This document shows positions 2,803-55,544 of a stretch of 59,703 bases of DNA, piece after piece. The stretch is taken from positions 1-59,703 of the forward strand of contig CAJODQ010000007.1 in assembly GCA_905233345.1 (NCBI GenBank). Direction: 5' to 3'. Made by a program: the position numbers and the translations under genes. Position 1 is the first letter of the stretch. The number at the start of each line of letters is the position of its first letter. The notes under the pieces were generated by a model that made no database searches, was not told where the DNA came from, and saw nothing but the letters and a program-made list of their open reading frames with translations. This DNA comes from an uncultured Bacteroidales bacterium (GTDB lineage: Bacteria; Bacteroidota; Bacteroidia; Bacteroidales; UBA932).

Positions 2803-4572
2803 TTAACAGTCAGGTGTAATGACCATCTCGCAGGCGGCGCAGTCGAAGTGGAGGCGAAGGCGGTTCTTCTGATTGACGAGGAAAAGGGGAGACCCCGGGT
2901 CGGGGCCCGGGGTGACGCTCGTCATGCCGGGCTTGACCCGGCATCTCGGACACATCCCCAGCTCCCAGCGGATGCAGTAGCGGCTGCGGAGGAGTTCGGC
3001 GGGGATGCCGAGGGTCGAACGGTTGAGGGCGGCTGCGCCGGGACGGGACGTATGCGCCATGTCCGGGCGCGGCCGGGTCTCGAGGCGCTCCTGCAGGGCT
3101 TCCGCCAGATCGCGGCGAATGCCGTTCAAGAAGGCGGCGGAATAGAAGCGCACGGGATCAGCCTCCAGCGAACGGATCGCAAACGCAAACGGTCCCGTGT
3201 GTTTGCCCAGCTGGCGGCGCAGGCCTTCCAGCGCCACATCGGACTTGTCGGCCAGCGGGGCCGCATCGGTGAAGCGCTGCTCCACAGAAACACCCTGCGA
3301 AGAAGCTGTAACTACGGTCTGGCCATCGCGGGAGTGCCAGTCAAGCGCCACGTCGAGCACCCGCCGGGGCATATTCTTTTCGAGTTCCCGCTCGAAACGG
3401 ATATCCAGGTTGCGGTAGACCCGCATGCCGGGCGTCAGCCCGGTCTTATCGCGCAAGGTCACGCGTCGGCCTTCGGCCAGTTCCACCCGCGCGCCCGTTA
3501 CTGCATCGCCCTTCCCCACAAACGACAGACCGTCGCCATTGGCCAGCGGCTTGCTGCCGGAAATCTCCACCACACGACCACGCACGGCCAAAATCTCGCC
3601 GAGGGGTTCGCCGAGCGCCTTGGCCGCATCTTCGCTGCGCATCTTTGCGCGCGGGCGCCGGTCCGGGCCGGCATCCACGAAAGCCGTGGTCCAGCCCCGG
3701 GTAAAAGTCCGGTCGGGATCGGGCGTGAAACCGCCCTCCAGCCGTCCGGCTGATGCCGCCGCATAGTCCGGATGCGACGCCAGGAATGCGTCGATCACCC
3801 CGCGGTAGTGCCGCACCACATTCTTCACATAGGAAGCATTCTTCAGCCGGCCCTCGATCTTGAAAGAACTGATCCCGGCCGCCACCAGGTCGGGAAGAAG
3901 GCCGTCAAGCCGCAGGTCGCGGGGCGAGAGCAGCGGCTGATCGCGGACGAGCACCCGGCCTTCGGCATCAACCAGGTCGTAGCGCGAACGGCAGGCCTGT
4001 GCGCAGACACCGCGGTTGGCGCTCCGGCCGGTGAGCTGCTGGCTCAGGTAGCATTCCCCGCTGTAACCCACACAGATGGCACCGTGGATGAAAAACTCCA
4101 GCTCGCATGAAACGGCGGCGCGAATGGCGCGGATCTGATCCAACGTGAGCTGCCGCTCGAGCACCAGGCGCGAGAAGCCCAGTGATTCAAGCTCCTGCGC
4201 ACGTTCGGGCGTGCGGATGGCCGTCTGCGTGGAGGCGTGCAGTTCCACGGGCGGCAGCGGCCCTTCGAGCAGCCGCAGGTCTTGGACGATAAACACGTCG
4301 ACACCCGCGTCATAGAGGTCCTGCACCAACTGACGGGCCTGGACGAGCTCCGGGTCCTCGAGCAGCGTGTTGACCGTAGCGTGGACCTTGGCGCCATACA
4401 GGTGCGCGTGGCGGCACAGCCGGGCGATTTCATCGATCGGGTTGCCCGCCGCCGCACGGGCGCCAAACGCAGGCCCCGCAATATAAACGGCATCGGCACC
4501 ACAGTCGATGGCTGCGATGCCGATATCCGTGTTTCTCGCGGGCGCGAGAAGTTCCAGTTTCTTTAGTTGCAC
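2803..4572 (-). CDS. U32-family peptidase / RNA-hydroxylation-type protein
   Basis: A 589-residue U32 family protein. The N-terminal part (LELLAPARN, near residue 5) starts the TIM-barrel-like domain, and the U32 signature is visible near 165-185 (EFFIHGAICVGYSGECYLS). Family members are annotated as peptidases, and some (RlhA, TrhP) act in RNA hydroxylation; which applies here is unknown. Conserved cysteines include CAQACRSRY, ELGMCPRC and a C-terminal FDCAACEM. The start is a GTG overlapping the TPR gene by 10 bases, implying translational coupling. Near the C-terminus an in-frame segment (about CRVKPGMTSVTPGPDPGSPL) derives from a palindromic repeat inserted at 2889-2947. Confidence 0.85.
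   Translation of the reverse strand: MQLKKLELLAPARNTDIGIAAIDCGADAVYIAGPAFGARAAAGNPIDEIARLCRHAHLYGAKVHATVNTLLEDPELVQARQLVQDLYDAGVDVFIVQDLRLLEGPLPPVELHASTQTAIRTPERAQELESLGFSRLVLERQLTLDQIRAIRAAVSCELEFFIHGAICVGYSGECYLSQQLTGRSANRGVCAQACRSRYDLVDAEGRVLVRDQPLLSPRDLRLDGLLPDLVAAGISSFKIEGRLKNASYVKNVVRHYRGVIDAFLASHPDYAAASAGRLEGGFTPDPDRTFTRGWTTAFVDAGPDRRPRAKMRSEDAAKALGEPLGEILAVRGRVVEISGSKPLANGDGLSFVGKGDAVTGARVELAEGRRVTLRDKTGLTPGMRVYRNLDIRFERELEKNMPRRVLDVALDWHSRDGQTVVTASSQGVSVEQRFTDAAPLADKSDVALEGLRRQLGKHTGPFAFAIRSLEADPVRFYSAAFLNGIRRDLAEALQERLETRPRPDMAHTSRPGAAALNRSTLGIPAELLRSRYCIRWELGMCPRCRVKPGMTSVTPGPDPGSPLFLVNQKNRLRLHFDCAACEMVITPDC
2889..2947. repeat. Palindromic repeats inserted in the U32 gene
   Basis: Two GC-rich palindromic units lie side by side: CCCCGGGT..GCCCGGGG-type at about 2892-2912 and CCGGGCTTGACCCGG at about 2928-2942. 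The same units occur at 37216-37265 and 45169-45230, with a related one at 11015-11060. Here they add roughly 20 codons between two cysteine motifs without breaking the frame. Confidence 0.7.
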
Positions 4573-6956: not shown

Positions 6957-7889
6957 ATGGAAGAACTTGATGAAGAGATGATCCAGTTTGAAAAAGATCA
7001 TCCGAGCAAAAAAAGTGGAAATGGCAGTGCCGGCAATTCGATGCGCACGGTAGCCATCGTCCTCGGCGCCGTCGCCGCGGCCCTGCTGGTTGTTCTGGGC
7101 GTGATGATGGTCAAGAAGAACGCACTGGTGAAAGACCTCAATATCGACAAGCAGAACCTGACGAACGAACTGATTGCCCTCCATGGCGACTACGAAGCCC
7201 TGAGCACAAACAACGCCGCGCTCAATGACTCCCTCAACGTCGAAAAAGTGAAGGTGGAACAGCTGATCGAGCGGCTCCAGAAGACGGAGGCCACCAACCG
7301 GGCCAAGATCCGCCAGTACGAGCAGGAACTTGGCACCCTCCGTTCCATCATGAAAGGATACATCCGGCAGATCGACTCGCTCAACACACTCAACACCTCC
7401 CTGCGGAACGAGGCTTCGGCCGCCCGCCGCGAGGCTCAGGAGAGCAAGCGCCAGTATGAAGACCTGCGCTCCACCACCGACGAGCTCTCGAAGATCGCTT
7501 CGGCCGGCGCCGTGGTGAAGGGCCGTGGTTTCAACCTGGTCGCCATCAACGAGTCGAACAAGGTCACCGACCGCAGCAGCCGCGCCCGCAAGCTCCGCGC
7601 CTGCATGAGCCTGATTGAAAACAGCATCGCCGAACGCGGCTGGCGCACGGTCTACATCCGTGTCAAGGGTCCCGACGATATCCTGATGACCGACGACACG
7701 GGCAAAGTCTTTGTCTGCGACGGCGAACAGATGATCTACTCGGCGCTTCGTGAAGTGGACTACCAGGGCGAGGAAGTGGAAATCTGCATCTACTTCGCCT
7801 CTTCAGAATCCTTCGCGAAAGGCAAGTACACGGTTGAGTTCTATACCGACGAGACCAAACTCGGCACCGCTGAGACGATCCTGAAATAG
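6957..7889 (+). CDS. Membrane-anchored coiled-coil protein, unknown function
   Basis: A 310-residue protein: an acidic cytoplasmic N-terminus (MEELDEEMIQFEKDH), one membrane helix at about 30-50, a long coiled coil at about 55-180, and a globular C-terminal domain of about 125 residues (VKGRGFNLVAINESNKV...). Conserved hypothetical proteins of this design occur in Bacteroidetes; the C-terminal domain is probably in the periplasm. The hemW gene follows after 4 bases, suggesting a common transcript. Confidence 0.8.
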   Translation: MEELDEEMIQFEKDHPSKKSGNGSAGNSMRTVAIVLGAVAAALLVVLGVMMVKKNALVKDLNIDKQNLTNELIALHGDYEALSTNNAALNDSLNVEKVKVEQLIERLQKTEATNRAKIRQYEQELGTLRSIMKGYIRQIDSLNTLNTSLRNEASAARREAQESKRQYEDLRSTTDELSKIASAGAVVKGRGFNLVAINESNKVTDRSSRARKLRACMSLIENSIAERGWRTVYIRVKGPDDILMTDDTGKVFVCDGEQMIYSALREVDYQGEEVEICIYFASSESFAKGKYTVEFYTDETKLGTAETILK

Positions 7890-27603: not shown

Positions 27604-27693
27604 TTCTTTTGGGCAAAAAGTCCCGCAAAGGTAATCATTTTCTTTTTACCTTTTAAAAATACGCGCTTGCAAAAAAATGTCCACCTGCGTCAA

Positions 27694-27777
27694 TTTACGA
27701 TTTTACACAACCTGATCCATTATATTTTACTCATTTTAACACAATTAGTCCCCAAGTTTTTACGATCCTTTACAACC
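27694..27777 (+). promoter_or_regulatory. Direct repeats upstream of the first AraC-type gene
   Basis: TTTACGAT followed by TTTACACAACC at 27694-27712 and by CCTTTACAACC at 27759-27777, 65 bases apart. A TGCGTC (reverse complement of the GACGCA motif near the second cassette) is at 27686-27691. A weak -7 box (GAACTTTG, 27795-27802) follows. Probably the control region of the first cassette. Confidence 0.4.
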
Positions 27778-27822
27778 ACAAACAGAATCCTTCCGAACTT
27801 TGCATACGCAATTCCAGGAAGT

Positions 27823-28119
27823 ATGCAAAACATCGAACATATCCTCGACACCATCCGCACCGAAGTAGAAGAACGCCGCGCGTACCTGGACCCCAACCTG
27901 ACGCTCGCCTCCCTCGCCGACCGGTGCCAGACCAACCGCACCTACGCATCGAAGGCCCTGAAAGAATTCGGCGGCTTCTTCGTCTACATCACCCACTGCC
28001 GACTGGCCTACGCCGAAACCTGGCACAAAAACCATCCCGACGCCACCGTCGACCAGATGGCCCACGCCGCTGGCTTCGGCACCCGCCAGTCCTATTACAA
28101 TGCCATCAAACATTTATAA
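27823..28119 (+). CDS. Stand-alone AraC-type DNA-binding protein (cassette 1)
   Basis: A 98-residue protein that is little more than an AraC-type double helix-turn-helix domain (YLDPNLTLASLADRCQTNRTYASKALKEFGG ... DQMAHAAGFGTRQSYYNAI). It lacks any sensor domain. The domain is clearly related to the C-terminus of the regulator at 51419-52510 (shared: AYLDP.LTL..(L/V)ADRC..NRTY). It lies six bases before the small peptide gene and upstream of the fimbrillin-like lipoprotein gene, and is the likely regulator of that group. A longer reading from 27667 is possible but the ATG at 27823 begins the conserved part. Confidence 0.8.
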   Translation: MQNIEHILDTIRTEVEERRAYLDPNLTLASLADRCQTNRTYASKALKEFGGFFVYITHCRLAYAETWHKNHPDATVDQMAHAAGFGTRQSYYNAIKHL

Positions 28120-28125
28120 ATAGCC

Positions 28126-28257
28126 ATGACCCTCAAAAGACCCTACGAAACGCCAATGGCGAAAGCGATAGAATTGAAATATCAAGGCTTCCTCTGCACC
28201 AGCGAAACAGATAACGCAACAGATGTCGAAGGCTTCACCTGGATTACACTTCCGTAA
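28126..28257 (+). CDS. 43-residue peptide, cassette 1
   Basis: Starts MTLKRPYETPMAKAIELKY, contains QGFLCTS with a single cysteine, and ends FTWITLP. It has no signal peptide. Its relative at 52789-52917 shares the same plan: YE(T/S)P, V/IE-(L/V)-K-(Y/F)-QG-(F/I)-(L/I)-CTS, a variable polar stretch, aromatic residues and final LP. In both cases the peptide gene lies immediately before a fimbrillin-like lipoprotein gene. It resembles the short ORFs often seen beside surface protein genes in Bacteroidales; function unknown (peptide signal, cofactor or modified-peptide precursor are possibilities). Confidence 0.65.
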   Translation: MTLKRPYETPMAKAIELKYQGFLCTSETDNATDVEGFTWITLP

Positions 28258-28275: not shown

Positions 28276-29943
28276 ATGAATAAAAATATCCTCATGCTGA
28301 TGGCCGCAGGGCTGTTCTGCCTCGCCGCTTGCAACGATATACTTGAAGTACAAGAAATCACCCAGCCGGAAGAACCCACTAGTTCCGGCAAGATGATTAC
28401 GGAAACCATTACGGCAAAAGTTGATTTTGGCGGCACGAAAGCTGGCATCGGAGCAGACGGAACCTTCTCCTGGACCCAAGGGGATCTTGTCGCTATACAT
28501 GTGTATAACGAAAACTCTTCTCCCGCATACAAATATGTTGTCAGCAGCGGCGCCTCCGCGTTTGGGGATAGTGCTTCGTTCGCAGTTTCTTACGAAGCGC
28601 CCTATGCCCGAAACGCGTTTGCCGTATATCCCAGTTCCATCGTTCCCAACACCGCTACTGGTGGGTTATACGGAATCGGTCATCCGTTGGATCTGGTGAT
28701 GCCCGCTTCTTACGCCCTTGACAGCATTTCCGGTGAAAAATCGCCCTGCCCGATGATTGCAACAAACAATCCCAACAGCCCAAAATGGAGATTCAAGCAA
28801 TTGTGTGGTCTACTGCGCCTTACTGTGTCCGGCATTCCTTCTACAGCCAGCTATTTGAAACTATATTTCAATGGAGTGGCTGTGAGCGGGGATTTCCAAG
28901 TCGCCGTCAGTGGGACTGACGTTGTCCCCGGAACATCAACGCTCAAATTGAAAGAATCTGCCCGCGACCAAGATCAATATATTACGATAACCGATTTACC
29001 GGCAAGCGTCGGCACCGTGACCTTTAACATTCCGCTTCCCACCACAGAAAGCGTCAGTTATCAGGACATCGTCGTCTCCGCCTGGGATGCGAGTGATCAC
29101 GCGCTGAAGGCGGAAATCATTCCGTTCACGCACTCCGTCGCCAGAGCGCAAGGCATAAAAATGTCCATTTCGCTGACAAGCTACGCATTCTACCGTGGCA
29201 CGTCTGGTAATACTCCGCTTTACTGCCTTATCGCTCCCGGTAACCTGAAATACAGCAACGGTACATTCAGTTTCCATACAAATCAGTATGATCGTTGCTT
29301 TACAACGGATGTTTATGATGGGAGTGACGCACAAAAAGCAGAGCGCACGGCAAACTACACTTCGAGCGGAACATTTGACCTATTTGGTTTTGGAACCTCG
29401 GGGTACAATTACTGTTACGCTTGGCTTCAGGATAACGATGACAGTAAATATGCTCCCGGCCATCTTTCCACTTCCACTTATTCGCAATATGATTGGGGAA
29501 TATATAATCCTATCGGGAGCTATTCCAAAAAAATATGGTGTACGCCCACGCATGATGAAATGAATGCGCTGAGATGGGGAGGCGCAACGGTCGTTGGCAT
29601 TAAAGGCAGAATAATCATTCCCGAATTATTCGTTGATCCCATGAAAAACAATGGGAGCGATGCATTCATAGAGTATATAAACAATAACTGCTCTTCAAGC
29701 CCAGATACTAATGTTTATGATGCTGATGGCTGGGCAGCCATGGAGAATGCAGGGGTCGCGTTCCTTCCGTTCACGGGGGAGGATGTATATAGCCATTATA
29801 TCAATAAACAAGGGGATTATTGGACAGCGACGTCGTATAGCAATAATTCAGCATATTTATATAGAGTCGGTTCTGTCGACGACGATCACCATACCAATCG
29901 CCATAAAAGCAAAGCCGTCCGCCTTATCCACCGCTTGAGATAA
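28276..29943 (+). CDS. Fimbrillin-like surface lipoprotein (cassette 1)
   Basis: A 555-residue lipoprotein (MNKNILMLMAAGLFCLAAC). After the lipobox come an acidic linker (EITQPEEP) and a fimbrillin-type beta-sandwich (FGGTKAGIGADGTFSWTQGD, then AFAVYPSS). The C-terminal 180 residues resemble the FISUMP-like module of such proteins (WCTPTHDEMNAL, GWAAMENAGVAFLPF, YWTATSYS, AVRLI). It probably sits on the cell surface as a fimbrial subunit or adhesin. The leader is almost identical to that of the lipoprotein at 52924-54774, whereas the bodies have diverged. A strong terminator follows. Confidence 0.82.
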   Translation: MNKNILMLMAAGLFCLAACNDILEVQEITQPEEPTSSGKMITETITAKVDFGGTKAGIGADGTFSWTQGDLVAIHVYNENSSPAYKYVVSSGASAFGDSASFAVSYEAPYARNAFAVYPSSIVPNTATGGLYGIGHPLDLVMPASYALDSISGEKSPCPMIATNNPNSPKWRFKQLCGLLRLTVSGIPSTASYLKLYFNGVAVSGDFQVAVSGTDVVPGTSTLKLKESARDQDQYITITDLPASVGTVTFNIPLPTTESVSYQDIVVSAWDASDHALKAEIIPFTHSVARAQGIKMSISLTSYAFYRGTSGNTPLYCLIAPGNLKYSNGTFSFHTNQYDRCFTTDVYDGSDAQKAERTANYTSSGTFDLFGFGTSGYNYCYAWLQDNDDSKYAPGHLSTSTYSQYDWGIYNPIGSYSKKIWCTPTHDEMNALRWGGATVVGIKGRIIIPELFVDPMKNNGSDAFIEYINNNCSSSPDTNVYDADGWAAMENAGVAFLPFTGEDVYSHYINKQGDYWTATSYSNNSAYLYRVGSVDDDHHTNRHKSKAVRLIHRLR

Positions 29944-51401: not shown

Positions 51402-51409
51402 TATTTTTG
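51402..51409 (+). promoter_or_regulatory. -7 box of the membrane AraC gene
   Basis: TATTTTTG, nine bases before the ATG at 51419; a very short leader is expected. Confidence 0.5.
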
Positions 51410-51418
51410 TCCCCGCAT

Positions 51419-52510
51419 ATGGCTCCGTCCTCCACATACTTCTACGGCATCGCGACCGTGGTATACATGACCACCTGCCTGGTGGTGGCGGCGGTGCGCT
51501 GGTTCCATATGTGCCGGCCCTACGACCGGAATCCCCGTTACTACTATCCCGGACGACCCTTCCTCACGGGCGCGTGGCTGAGTTCCCTGACGCTGCTGCC
51601 CTACCTCATCCATCCGGAATGCGCGGATGCGTGGTTCCTGGCGCGCTTCTATTTCCTGCCGGTGACGCTCTATCACTTCACGCTGCTCCTCTTCTCCTAT
51701 TTCGGAAATGTCATGAAATGGAAGCAGTGGCGTTGGCCTGCGATCATCGCGGGCTTTCCGGTGGCGCTGGTGATGCTGGCCGCCGTAGTGCTGGCCATTG
51801 TGCCCGGCGAGCAACTGGGCGGAACGCACCTGGCGAACTATCTGCTGTACATTATGGGCATGCTCATCACGGCGCTCTGCTTCGCTTCCATCGCCATGGT
51901 GATGATCTGGGCCAATCGCTTCGACCCCGACGACTACTCCAATCCGAAAGACTTCCCTGTCACGCAGGCACGCAAGTGGCTGATGATGATTCTCCTGAAC
52001 CTGACGTTCTGCTGGACGGTGGCCCTGCTCAACAACCCGACCGCGCTGGCACTGCTCGAGATCTTCATCGCCAGCTTCTGCGTGGTCACCGTCATCACGG
52101 CCCTGCACCCCAACCGTACCCGGGCACCCGAGGAGCCCGCGCCGGAACTTCCCGCAGCGGCAGAAGAAACGTCGCAGGTCTACAATCGCTCGCTTCCCCG
52201 CCATCGCCAGGAAGAGATCCTTTCCGCCATCGTCACGGTCGTGGAAGAGATGGAAGCCTATCTCGATCCGCACCTCACCCTGCAGGACGTGGCGGACCGC
52301 TGCGGCTACAACCGCACCTATATCTCCGGCCTGGTGAAAACCCAGTTCGGCGGCTTCTCCGACTACGTCAACCGCCTCCGCCTCACCTACGTCGACAACT
52401 ACCTGAAGCAAAATCCTGACGCCACCCTCAGCGAAGCCATTGACGCCGCCGGCTTCGGTTCCCGCTCCCGTTACTACGCCTGCAAATCGAAGTTGCAGGG
52501 GGAGAAATAA
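51419..52510 (+). CDS. Membrane-bound AraC-type regulator (cassette 2)
   Basis: A 363-residue protein with five or six membrane helices in the first 220 residues (for example IATVVYMTTCLVVAAVRW, WPAIIAGFPVALVMLAAVVL) and a C-terminal AraC double helix-turn-helix (AYLDPHLTLQDVADRCGYNRTYISGL ... AAGFGSRSRYY). This layout suggests a sensor in the membrane controlling DNA binding. The DNA-binding part is closely related to the stand-alone protein at 27823-28119. The start at 51419 (MAPSSTYFY) is an ATG; a TTG at 51407 would add four residues. Confidence 0.87.
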   Translation: MAPSSTYFYGIATVVYMTTCLVVAAVRWFHMCRPYDRNPRYYYPGRPFLTGAWLSSLTLLPYLIHPECADAWFLARFYFLPVTLYHFTLLLFSYFGNVMKWKQWRWPAIIAGFPVALVMLAAVVLAIVPGEQLGGTHLANYLLYIMGMLITALCFASIAMVMIWANRFDPDDYSNPKDFPVTQARKWLMMILLNLTFCWTVALLNNPTALALLEIFIASFCVVTVITALHPNRTRAPEEPAPELPAAAEETSQVYNRSLPRHRQEEILSAIVTVVEEMEAYLDPHLTLQDVADRCGYNRTYISGLVKTQFGGFSDYVNRLRLTYVDNYLKQNPDATLSEAIDAAGFGSRSRYYACKSKLQGEK

Positions 52511-52522
52511 GGGTTTTCGCTG

Positions 52523-52624
52523 CGTTAACGGCGGCCGTTAACGAATTCAAACAACATTTTGACGCAACCGGACACCGCTTGGACGCAGGCGATACAGTCC
52601 TTCCATGCGCGCACCCTACCTTTG
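52523..52624 (+). promoter_or_regulatory. AraC-type operator and promoter of cassette 2
   Basis: A perfect 21-bp palindrome at 52523-52543 (arms CGTTAACGGC). Then the half-site GACGCA at 52561-52566 and 52582-52587, exactly 21 bp (two helical turns) apart in the same orientation, as usual for AraC-type dimers. TACCTTTG at 52617-52624 is the -7 box; no good -33 TTTG, as expected for an activator-dependent promoter. The first ATG downstream is at 52650. Confidence 0.6.
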
Positions 52625-52649
52625 TATCGCGTTTGAAAAACCGCGCAGT

Positions 52650-52775
52650 ATGGACTGGCAAAACATCCTCATGATCATCATCACCGTGCTGCTGCTTTTC
52701 GTGTGGCTCCCGGTCCTCATCCTCTCCGTCCGCCGCGCCCTTCGGAAAGAAAAGGAACAATCCGACAATAAATAA
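52650..52775 (+). CDS. 41-residue single-helix membrane micropeptide
   Basis: Begins MDWQNILMIIITVLLLFVWL, continues PVLILSVRRALRKEKE and ends QSDNK. One strongly hydrophobic helix of about 23 residues, followed by a positively charged tail that should stay inside. It lies between the -7 box at 52617 and the small peptide gene. Copy 1 of the cassette has no equivalent. It could be a partner of the membrane regulator; that is inference. Confidence 0.55.
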   Translation: MDWQNILMIIITVLLLFVWLPVLILSVRRALRKEKEQSDNK

Positions 52776-52788
52776 TTATCATCATACC

Positions 52789-52917
52789 ATGGGCAACAAC
52801 AAGAAACTTACGTATGAATCACCCCACACAGACGTGGTGGAAGTAAAATTCCAAGGCATCATTTGCACCAGCGACCCCCAGAATGCAGGTGGCGAAAACT
52901 TCATTTGGCTTCCCTAA
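52789..52917 (+). CDS. 42-residue peptide, cassette 2
   Basis: Starts MGNNKKLTYESPHTDVVEVK, has FQGIICTSDPQNAGG and ends NFIWLP. Paralogue of the peptide at 28126-28257: same YE-S/T-P, VEVK/IELK, QG-x-x-CTS, aromatic, and LP end. One cysteine, no signal peptide. It lies 6 bases before the lipoprotein gene. Function unknown. Confidence 0.65.
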   Translation: MGNNKKLTYESPHTDVVEVKFQGIICTSDPQNAGGENFIWLP

Positions 52918-52923
52918 CTTAAC

Positions 52924-54774
52924 ATGCAAGCAATTATGAAAAAAAATATCCTCATACTGATGGCCGCCGGGCTGTTCTGCCTCGCCGCCTGCAACAATGC
53001 ATTGGAGATCAAAGAAATCACCCAGCCGGAAGACCCCAACGCGCCTGTCCAGCTGATTACGGAAACCATTTCGGCGCGCGTCGGCGACGGTGCTACCAAG
53101 GCTACTATTGACGGAAGCAGCGGAACGTTCTCCTGGACGGAAGGTAAAGATAAAATCGCCGTTCACACGACTGGAGGGTACGTTCTCTCCACAGTGGCCT
53201 CGGCCAGCGGAGCAACTACAGACTTTACCGTATCCTATTCAGGTAGCAGAGATTGTTTTGCCGTCTATCCGCACACGCTGGTATACAACGAGTCTACTTC
53301 ATCTTTCATTGCAGAGTGTGTAGAAACCTATGGAACCGATAACAATAAAACTATTAAAGTTTGTCTTCCATCCACTTACGCATTAGGAGACATTCAGGAC
53401 GACAACACCATTTGCCCCATGATTGCCACGAATACACCGGGGTCCGGATGGTCATTCATACAGCTCTGCGGCCTTTTACGCTTAACGATCGACGGCATTC
53501 CGGCAGGAACAAAAAGTTTGAAGGTCGATTTCAACGGAATACCCGTAAGCGGCATTTACAGGGTTCACGGCTCTCCCCTTACAAGTACCCCTTCAAAACC
53601 AGATTCTCTCCAATGGGACTTGCATAATGATGAATATACTGATTACTACTCAGTCGGTATTGGTGGTAGTTATTACGATCATTTCTATGAAGATATTATC
53701 ACAATAACAGGAATTACTAATCAGGACCCTGTGACTGTAAACATTCCGCTTCCCACAAGTCCTAATCTCAATGTAGAAAGATATAAGTATAGAGAATTGA
53801 TCATTTATGCCTGTGATGAGAATGGTAAGCCACTTAAGGCTGCCGTTAAAACCTTATCTTTATACACGGCTAACCGGGCCAAGGGAAAGAAGGTTAGTGC
53901 CACGCTTTCTAGTGAACTATTCTCAGTAGCAGACGGAAAGTATGCGCTCATTGCTCCGTCCAATTTAAAGGCGACCACTACCGACTCGTGGTCAACTTGG
54001 ACCTTTAGTTTTATGGAGAACCCTTGGGATATTGTAGAGACTAATTTAGGCGCCGACACTTGTTGTACCGCAAACTATAAGACCCAGAGCGCTGCAAGCC
54101 TCTTCTCTTTTACATCCAGTGGGCTTTCTGATGATCATCAACATCCAAACAGTACTAATCCAAGCCTTGATGTTTTCTGGGCCTACAGACACGCGGAATA
54201 TGACCTGGATCGTTTCGTTGCCTCAGTTGGTAGTAGCTCAAATTATTATAGATATGCAGATTGGGGTTGTAATATTATTAGCAATGACGGCTTTAACAGA
54301 CAAGGATGCGGTTGGATAACTCCCTCCAATGCTGAGTGGACCTATCTGCTCAATACCCGCTCTGGTTACCGCTACGCTAAAGCCTCCATCCACTCAAGAA
54401 ATGGCCTGATTATTTTTCCGGATAATTTTAATCCTACTGCCGTTGGAGTGACTATCTCTAATGAAAACACTGCCAATGCCTCCTTCACCTCCTATTCTAA
54501 TGATGATTGGACAAAGATGGCAAATGCCGGCTGTGTATTCCTTCCGGTTGCAGGACAACGTACAGGAAGTACCGAAAAACCAAACATAACTCTTTCAACG
54601 CCAAATGAAGGCTATTACTGGTCTCGTACAGTTTATCAATCGAGTAGTCAAAAGCAACAATCGTATTGTGTCCATTTCACCGACTCAGAGGTTAATCCGG
54701 AATACCACAATTTTAAAAGATATGGCGCCTCTGTCCGCCTGATTTTCCCCGTCAACTATAATTTTATCAACTAA
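52924..54774 (+). CDS. Fimbrillin-like surface lipoprotein (cassette 2)
   Basis: A 616-residue lipoprotein; the ATG at 52936 (MKKNILILMAAGLFCLAAC) is also possible. Same plan as the lipoprotein at 28276: EITQPEDP linker, GTFSWTEG, FAVYPHT, WITPSNAEW, DDWTKMANAGCVFLPVAG, GYYWSRTVY, ASVRLIFPV. The second half (about 53600-54770) is much more A/T-rich than the surrounding genome, as often seen in variable surface proteins. Leader DNA is nearly identical to that of the first copy, suggesting duplication or gene conversion. Confidence 0.82.
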   Translation: MQAIMKKNILILMAAGLFCLAACNNALEIKEITQPEDPNAPVQLITETISARVGDGATKATIDGSSGTFSWTEGKDKIAVHTTGGYVLSTVASASGATTDFTVSYSGSRDCFAVYPHTLVYNESTSSFIAECVETYGTDNNKTIKVCLPSTYALGDIQDDNTICPMIATNTPGSGWSFIQLCGLLRLTIDGIPAGTKSLKVDFNGIPVSGIYRVHGSPLTSTPSKPDSLQWDLHNDEYTDYYSVGIGGSYYDHFYEDIITITGITNQDPVTVNIPLPTSPNLNVERYKYRELIIYACDENGKPLKAAVKTLSLYTANRAKGKKVSATLSSELFSVADGKYALIAPSNLKATTTDSWSTWTFSFMENPWDIVETNLGADTCCTANYKTQSAASLFSFTSSGLSDDHQHPNSTNPSLDVFWAYRHAEYDLDRFVASVGSSSNYYRYADWGCNIISNDGFNRQGCGWITPSNAEWTYLLNTRSGYRYAKASIHSRNGLIIFPDNFNPTAVGVTISNENTANASFTSYSNDDWTKMANAGCVFLPVAGQRTGSTEKPNITLSTPNEGYYWSRTVYQSSSQKQQSYCVHFTDSEVNPEYHNFKRYGASVRLIFPVNYNFIN

Positions 54775-54848: not shown

Positions 54849-55214
54849 CTAAAGCATGCAAGCCCAGCCGAACTTCCGGGATATTTCTTTAAGCAGGTTT
54901 CTGTCCTGAACAGGGATAACTACGGAAACTGTCTCGCGCTGGTTTTCGTGTTCCGCGATATGGGCTGAATCCAAATCATACTGCGTCTGTAGATTCATCC
55001 ACATTTCAGCCGGAATGCCCAAAGCCTTTTCCAGCGCAACAGCGACATTCATGGAAATGGAACGTTTCCCGTTGATCGTCTCGCTGATGACCGAGGCTTT
55101 GATTCCCGTCATTTCTGAAAGTTGTTTCTGCGTAAGGCCCCTTTCTTTCAGTTCGTCCTTGATGAGTTCCCCCGGATGTGTCGCTACGAAAGGTACCAGC
55201 ATTGTATTATTCAT
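54849..55214 (-). CDS. higA: HigA-type antitoxin
   Basis: A 121-residue protein with the HigA layout: THPGELIKDELKERGLTQKQLSEMTGIKASVISETINGKRSIS (helix-turn-helix XRE), then ALGIPAEMWMNLQTQYDLD. It neutralises the toxin encoded upstream and represses the operon. The toxin gene overlaps its start by eight bases. Confidence 0.92.
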   Translation of the reverse strand: MNNTMLVPFVATHPGELIKDELKERGLTQKQLSEMTGIKASVISETINGKRSISMNVAVALEKALGIPAEMWMNLQTQYDLDSAHIAEHENQRETVSVVIPVQDRNLLKEISRKFGWACML

Positions 55215-55524
55215 AGTGTTTAGATATTTCCATTATTAGTGCGTTAACTCTGATTCTTTGCTCGTCAGGCGAGCTTATGAAAAGGAGTCGGTATTGGTCA
55301 TTGATCCAAACAGCCTCAACGCCTTTTAGGTTGCCTTCCTTCTTTTCATAGTGCAGCGATTTGATAAGAAACAAATCTTCTACACGGAGCGCACCTCTCA
55401 AATAGGTCACAACCTTGATATAGCGCTTTACGATATCCATCGGAAGGCGTTTATAATGCTTGTCGTTTGTAGACCCCGTCAAATACAGATCCTCCAAAGC
55501 CTTGTCCGCAAACTCAATGTTCAT
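55207..55524 (-). CDS. higB: HigB-type toxin (RelE/ParE superfamily)
   Basis: A 105-residue protein starting MNIEFADKALEDLYLTG, with the RelE-like core (VVTYLRGAL, KSLHYEKKEGNLKGVEAVWINDQYRLLF). Such toxins are mRNA interferases. The toxin gene comes first, the usual order for higBA. The operator and promoter are at 55545-55598. Confidence 0.9.
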   Translation of the reverse strand: MNIEFADKALEDLYLTGSTNDKHYKRLPMDIVKRYIKVVTYLRGALRVEDLFLIKSLHYEKKEGNLKGVEAVWINDQYRLLFISSPDEQRIRVNALIMEISKHYE

Positions 55525-55544
55525 ACTTCCCCTCAATCCATTGA

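Follow-up and report, generated by a model that had tools for sequence, protein, structure and literature searches.

The window analysed in this work is a 59,703-nucleotide stretch of an uncultured Bacteroidales bacterium (contig CAJODQ010000007.1 of assembly GCA_905233345.1), corresponding to contig C7 of a source genome (G000) of 2.32 Mb that is 89.4% complete. At positions 51419–54774 lies cassette 2 (copy 2), a four-gene unit on the plus strand encoding a membrane regulator, a one-helix protein (MIC), a small peptide (PEP) and a lipoprotein. An earlier note on this DNA had claimed such a unit, and all four genes were indeed found in that order. The regulator (51419–52510; 363 amino acids (aa)) starts from an ATG, with an in-frame TTG upstream at 51407, and combines seven membrane helices with a C-terminal AraC-type DNA-binding domain. 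It is followed by MIC (52650–52775), identified through family alignments and its linkage to seven-helix regulators, with 41 aa or, from an alternative in-frame ATG at 52605, 56 aa; by PEP (52789–52917), a 42-aa peptide recognised by family comparison; and by the lipoprotein (52936–54774; alternative ATG start at 52924), whose 612 aa include a signal with a lipobox-like LAAC. Considering these genes together with their operator and their relatives in other genomes, we think it probable that cassette 2 is a one-component switch in which a membrane sensor controls a surface lipoprotein that can be exchanged.

An AlphaFold2 model of the regulator built from 33 sequences (predicted local distance difference test (pLDDT) score of 84.9 and predicted template modelling (pTM) score of 0.62) contains helices at residues 2–29, 46–64, 69–95, 102–127, 137–167, 180–204 and 207–228, followed by the AraC-type domain. 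In this model, a membrane domain and a DNA-binding domain are joined in a single chain, the arrangement of a membrane-bound one-component regulator. The HTH_18 score of the cassette 2 protein is 26.3 bits, below the Pfam cut-off of 33.6; the same Pfam model matches 31 of the 33 family members at E ≤ 0.01, which places the family among the AraC/XylS proteins with a double helix-turn-helix (HTH). Pfam models other than those of HTH families reach this threshold in 2 of the 33 members at most. Compared with the PDB, the DNA-binding part retrieved AraC-type domains with a probability of 1.00 but an E value of 0.06, and the membrane part showed a weak likeness to seven-helix receptors at E 0.2 or worse. 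Because seven helices precede a cytoplasmic DNA-binding end, the N-terminus is predicted to lie outside. The closest named relatives of the regulator come from rumen Bacteroidales metagenome-assembled genomes (MAGs). A second kind of AraC regulator, with Kelch-type repeats, one apparent membrane helix and an AraC HTH, was also observed near PEP genes, at loci L155 (6811–8448, minus strand) and L168 (5099–6853, minus strand).

Between the regulator and MIC, motif search and phase analysis located an operator repeat, TTGACGCAACCGGACA (52559–52574, plus strand), which starts 58 bp before the −7 box, and a second, degenerate repeat with 2 mismatches (52580–52595, plus strand), which forms a direct repeat at lag 21 and starts 37 bp before the box. 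The −7 box itself, TACCTTTG (52617–52624, plus strand), matches TAnnTTTG, the −7 consensus of Bacteroidota. When the upstream regions of MIC and PEP genes were read in the direction of transcription, direct repeats like TTGACGCAnnnGGACA were found ahead of these genes with a spacing of about 20.8 bp, in phase with the promoter. A motif-free comparison with dinucleotide shuffles gave direct repeats at lags of 20–23 bp with p ≤ 0.02 in 9 of 23 regions, among which L059 and L060 are near-copies; the region of copy 2 repeats at lag 21, with p = 0.02 for lags 20–23. The motif TTGACGCA-N3/4-GGACA, at 0 or 1 mismatch, is present in 11 of 17 regions and in none of 100 shuffles of each; six of the 23 regions were omitted from this count as near-copies or motif-less second units, and three of the 17 (copy 1, copy 2 and the unit on contig C14 of the source genome) had suggested the motif. 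The exact 13/13 motif has two matches in G000, one per window cassette, and no others. Across 13 promoters with an exact TAnnTTTG, 30 sites (2 mismatches at most) have their starts near −17, −37, −58, −78 and −98, with a best period of 20.8 bp (R 0.96) and a site at −36/−37 in 12 of the 13; L060, L059b, L060b and seven regions without an exact TAnnTTTG were omitted from this analysis. The position of the operator would fit an activator bound beside the promoter. Operator-like sequences were also seen in other settings. A perfect palindrome of two such sites (TGAACGCAGGTGAACA; L216, about 3006–3039, G000:C3:92005–92038) precedes genes for an outer-membrane-like protein and lipoproteins, and four operator-like repeats stand before a lipoprotein with collagen-like repeats, with no PEP, at L214 (about 3178–3260, G265:C1).

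MIC is built from an acidic N-terminus, a helix with a conserved W-P and a basic C-terminus, as seen in family alignments, and by the positive-inside rule its C-terminus would be cytoplasmic. A search of 299 genomes of the taxonomic family gave 13 matches in 9 genomes, one of which (G056) was left out of the count as a partial match within a 703-aa frame. None of the 12 credible genes, from 8 genomes, is more than 3 kb away from a seven-helix regulator: nine adjoin it and three belong to second units within that distance. PEP comes after 11 of them, and the twelfth, on C14 of the source genome, ends at the contig end. Within the genus, the four genomes with MIC are all among the 7 of 40 that carry a full-length seven-helix regulator (probability 0.0004 if independent, with relatedness ignored). 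The protein family has no credible database match. The idea that the one-helix protein had been inserted in copy 2 is not supported, given that MIC recurs beside seven-helix regulators. In close-relative pairs, the proportion of nonsynonymous changes (pN) is below that of synonymous changes (pS) in 4 of 6 cases for MIC, the other two lacking any silent change, and in 6 of 7 for PEP, the exception being L077/L080; both thus behave as coding genes in most of these comparisons.

PEP has a conserved head, K..Y..P.....E.K..G..C.S, and a variable tail that is acidic in 60 of 61 units (mean charge −3.4). It was found in 70 of the 299 family genomes at E ≤ 1e-3 and in 2 of 295 order-wide genomes, source genome included, at E ≤ 1e-4, two figures that are not strictly comparable since the second search used a different alignment and cut-off. 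Twenty PEPs compared with NCBIfam and Pfam gave single-member matches only, at E 0.02 or worse, and belong to no known family among these, including ribosomally synthesised and post-translationally modified peptides, though modification enzymes nearby were not systematically searched. PEP was considered as the precursor of a modified peptide or pheromone, and the idea was dropped: the head-tail shape is all that speaks for it, and no family matches. Because the covariation of head, tail and lipoprotein is weak (Spearman 0.08 to 0.15 over 1485 non-independent pairs from 55 units), we make no claim that tails match lipoproteins. Elsewhere in the source genome (L215:4911–4973, contig C13), a PEP head with a preceding operator-like site and no recognisable tail or lipoprotein appears to be a remnant.

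In 59 PEP rows, near-copies included, the open reading frame (ORF) directly next passes a strict lipobox pattern in 36 and a relaxed one in 8. In 12 rows it passes neither, and 3 have no ORF to judge; read by eye, the 12 include two apparent lipoproteins (L104 and L109) and seven apparent secreted proteins of other kinds. The cassette 2 lipoprotein starts with TKA..W..GD, which we take to be fimbrillin-like. Its C-terminus matches Fib_succ_major weakly (E 0.0056; 17.4 bits against a cut-off of 33.9) and is not assigned to that family, and its structure model, with a pLDDT of 36, is useless. Fimbrillin family models of Pfam and NCBIfam match neither lipoprotein of the window, and those of Pfam match neither the C13 nor the C14 lipoprotein. 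Variation of the cassette 2 lipoprotein by a diversity-generating retroelement (DGR) was considered and rejected, as no template was found in the 89.4% complete genome; the last 604 bases of the gene match only 22 bases, at E 0.35. A DGR is present elsewhere in G000 (L241, G000:C14:392–5387), with a reverse transcriptase above the Pfam cut-off, a 164-bp template (1448–1611) and a variable copy (2555–2718) that ends the gene of a 944-aa lipoprotein with a weak Fib_succ_major match; 20 of the 22 differences between template and copy fall at template adenines.

When GTDB genomes were searched with the alignment of the regulators, 44 loci were obtained. Across genomes, the form with a membrane domain is the common one. 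The earlier description of cassette 2 as a unit with additions is therefore apt for copy 2 against copy 1 and fails across genomes, where the membrane form is commoner. With a MIC within 450 bp or a PEP within 650 bp counted as a divergent partner, 18 of the 44 loci have one (MIC and PEP in 10, PEP alone in 7, MIC alone in 1). Judged from gene order, the unit is more than a chance arrangement, since the same three partners (regulator, MIC and PEP) are found together again in other species. The source genome encodes five seven-helix regulators and one bare one (contig C1 adds two weak matches) and holds two more PEP-lipoprotein units. The unit on C14 consists of regulator, MIC, PEP and lipoprotein, followed close to the contig end by another MIC. 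The unit on C13 has no adjoining regulator and carries four repeats of another operator type (GAACGGAnnTGGACA-like), which is shared by the PEP adjacent to the regulator of L071. In turn, a regulator on C20 of the source genome groups with that of L071 (support 99/98). In 12 genomes of the genus, TGAACGGAnnTGGACA has three exact sites, all ahead of PEP units: G235:C13 (the L071 unit), G235:C39 and C13 of the source genome. A one-mismatch copy lies ahead of the C20 regulator in an L071-like array (L019, about 7100–7250, G000:C20), beside which no PEP-lipoprotein was found, and at L068 the flanks are conserved with L071 but the PEP-lipoprotein that L071 carries between them is missing. The C20 array and L068 may thus be empty expression sites.

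The window holds a related unit, copy 1, whose regulator is a bare AraC-type HTH protein of 98 aa without a membrane domain (27823–28119, plus strand), assigned by HTH comparison and tree. It is followed on the same strand by a 43-aa PEP (28126–28257), found by PEP comparison, and a 555-aa lipoprotein (28276–29943). The two cassettes share 51% identity in the HTH region (over residues 263–355 of the cassette 2 regulator), 45% in PEP and 34.6% over 603 aa in the lipoproteins, and on these alignments they are true relatives. Upstream, one of the two exact genome matches to the operator motif, TTGACGCAGGTGGACA, is inverted (27678–27693, minus strand); degenerate sites resembling the operator begin at 27694, 27726 and 27759. 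A −7-like box, GAACTTTG (27795–27802, plus strand), one fixed-position base off TAnnTTTG, lies 36 bp downstream of the start of the third. An inverted pair occurs also at L077 and L087, loci of the branch of copy 1. The gap between the copy 1 regulator and the neighbouring gene is only 219 bp and thus hides no membrane domain; the chance of an exact motif in this gap is about 7e-6 for equal base use. Directly downstream of cassette 2 lies a HigB/HigA-like toxin-antitoxin pair (54849–55536, minus strand).

The history of the two regulators was read from a tree of the HTH region (58 of 61 regulator sequences, 102 columns). Both HTHs belong to one family rather than to unrelated AraC branches. 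The earlier note took copy 1 for a sensor-less sibling of copy 2; as sisters the two are rejected by the approximately unbiased (AU) test (p-AU 0.0002), and the copy 2 regulator falls outside the group of copy 1. The copy 1 regulator and the bare regulator of L092 are sisters (99/96), and one group (97/99) unites three bare regulators (copy 1, L092 and L153) with 17 seven-helix regulators of the C6/C25 type; the remaining family members have seven helices. Because the bare proteins are grouped with seven-helix ones inside an otherwise seven-helix family, the simplest reading is that the sensor was lost in the branch of copy 1, once or twice, in agreement with one of the two possibilities given in the earlier note (lost, or never had). 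An ancestral bare form in this branch, with the membrane domain of the C6/C25 type acquired by recombination, would accommodate the divergence of the bare proteins at the base of the 20-row group, where the branching order is not settled, and the clade formed by the 17 seven-helix members (98/90); the three bare proteins form a single clade in 177 of 500 bootstrap trees (p-AU 0.48), a result that neither establishes nor rejects such a clade. We regard this alternative as unlikely, since it requires the gain of a homologous seven-helix domain where loss is simpler, and the tree behind it has 102 columns only.

Comparison of sister sites revealed that the lipoprotein differs behind a constant control region. 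L059 (G200) and L060 (G244) are 98.8% identical over 7.4 kb spanning regulator, operator and MIC. The identity stops 17 nt into PEP, where unlike lipoproteins of 525 and 782 aa follow. The second MIC and PEP head of these loci are 93.3% identical over 223 bp up to the PEP Cys codon, and the cargos there again differ, one being a 1000-aa protein with BspA-type repeats and the other a protein of 455 aa; downstream of the cargos, identity returns (98.9% over 565 bp). C14 of the source genome follows L060 at 91% identity as far as nt 90 of PEP, beyond which it has a third cargo. These alignments indicate gene exchange with joints in the PEP gene, for which plain homologous recombination is favoured over a programmed process; the claim rests on three sister sites (L059, L060 and the source genome's C14), with L106/L113 as a weaker further case. 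All genomes are MAGs, and repeated PEP heads can confuse assemblers, so the exchange could be an artefact of metagenome bins. This is highly improbable in our view, as both flanks of L059 and L060 lie within one contig each (308 kb and 65 kb) and are 98.8% and 98.9% identical, and C14 carries its own cargo. A segment of about 2.1 kb upstream of a PEP gene is flipped in some genomes relative to others (L222, L231 and L233), and in two of these three loci it is bounded by inverted repeats that reach 41 bp. A phase switch was considered and rejected, and we read the segment as a rearrangement because no recombinase was recognised inside and the end repeats are terminator-like.

For the switch proposed above, the regulator would be anchored in the inner membrane, its AraC-type domain facing the cytoplasm, and its membrane domain may sense a cue from the envelope or the outside. 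It would then bind the direct repeats phased at about −37, −58, −78 and −98 from the −7 box and so turn on the MIC-PEP-lipoprotein operon; activation is suggested by the position of the sites. Given its strict linkage, MIC, itself a product of this operon, most likely docks on the membrane domain of the regulator and feeds back. PEP, made just ahead of the lipoprotein, probably assists or monitors it in the cytoplasm, in keeping with their constant pairing. The PEP tail and the lipoprotein would be replaceable cargo behind a constant site composed of regulator, operator, MIC and PEP head. Copy 1 may be a like unit run by a bare DNA-binding protein of another family branch, and its operator motif could also be bound by the regulator of copy 2.

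Several results weigh against this reading. By the models used, a divergent MIC or PEP is lacking at 26 of the 44 regulator loci, including L058, where MIC and PEP lie on the same strand about 2.6 kb on, in an order like that of cassette 2; 5 of the 44 loci start less than 500 bp from a contig end, where neighbours may be hidden. PEP is common in genomes without a match to the seven-helix regulator and is therefore independent of it. MIC is near a regulator in every credible case yet missing in 7 of 17 divergent PEP units, so it is, on this distribution, a recurrent but not an obligatory partner of seven-helix regulators. The lag test is not significant at 0.02 in 14 of the 23 regions, including copy 1 (0.65) and C14 (0.25), and the half-site variants of the phase analysis were picked from the same regions. 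At up to 2 mismatches the motif gives 76 genome matches against 52 for a reversed control, so loose matches mean little. Regulator loci without PEP or MIC beside them, and PEP units without an adjoining regulator, would also be expected if the genes were neighbours only, with the regulator's targets elsewhere and the repeats bound by another factor. We consider this very unlikely, because the operator type tracks the regulator branch, both in cis (L071) and in trans (the source genome's C13 and G235:C39), and direct control of the operon by the regulator appears well supported by the sequences. Nor is it easy to see the regulator as a repressor that holds the operon off until a membrane cue releases it. 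In favour of repression, the last repeat of L059 and of L057 begins at −17 relative to the −7 box, a place from which a bound protein could obstruct RNA polymerase. Against it, the site at −36/−37 in nearly all promoters and the arrays phased upstream to about −98 are as for promoter-adjacent activators, and AraC-type proteins are mostly activators (also stated in PMC2386152), which makes repression distinctly unlikely.

If the activating switch operates as proposed, it would provide a testable wiring rule in a rumen lineage that is largely uncultured, by which the sequence of the operator predicts the pairing of regulator and lipoprotein, even across contigs. Two families without credible database matches, MIC and PEP, would be tied to this rule, and surface proteins could be exchanged between genomes with the control unchanged. 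A decidedly speculative extension is an antigen expression site, in which the PEP head is the joint for new lipoprotein cassettes and the MIC or PEP product is a feedback ligand of the seven-helix domain. The lineage would then keep its trigger yet change its surface, and the regulator would be a bacterial seven-helix receptor wired straight to DNA.

MIC may be likened to MgrB and SafA in the way it would work, as a one-helix protein under the control of a sensor that it possibly touches. MgrB and SafA act on histidine kinases, whereas the partner of MIC would be a one-component regulator. In the literature searched (open-licence PMC papers, with partly unspecific terms), no description of the unit was recognised. 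Lipoproteins with Mfa2 and Fib_succ_major domains are known DGR targets in gut metagenomes, as PMC4159848 describes them; they have a lipoprotein signal, a fimbrillin-related part and a C-terminal Fib_succ_major domain, which the cassette 2 lipoprotein resembles in its signal, fimbrillin-like start and weak C-terminal match. They differ in being DGR targets, whereas for the cassette 2 protein no template was found in the genome and the domain match is below the cut-off. Another parallel, by description, is the set of membrane-anchored AraC-type one-component regulators of Saccharophagus degradans, which according to PMC2386152 are mostly expanded as paralogues, like the present family; several of the membrane-bound factors in that genome lie near possible target genes, and direct sensing of outside cues was proposed. 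Polysaccharide degradation was the role proposed there, whereas the present regulator accompanies two very small proteins (MIC and PEP), a lipoprotein and an array of phased operator sites. Membrane-bound AraC one-component regulators are thus already known, and the unit described here is a variant tied to MIC, PEP and a lipoprotein.

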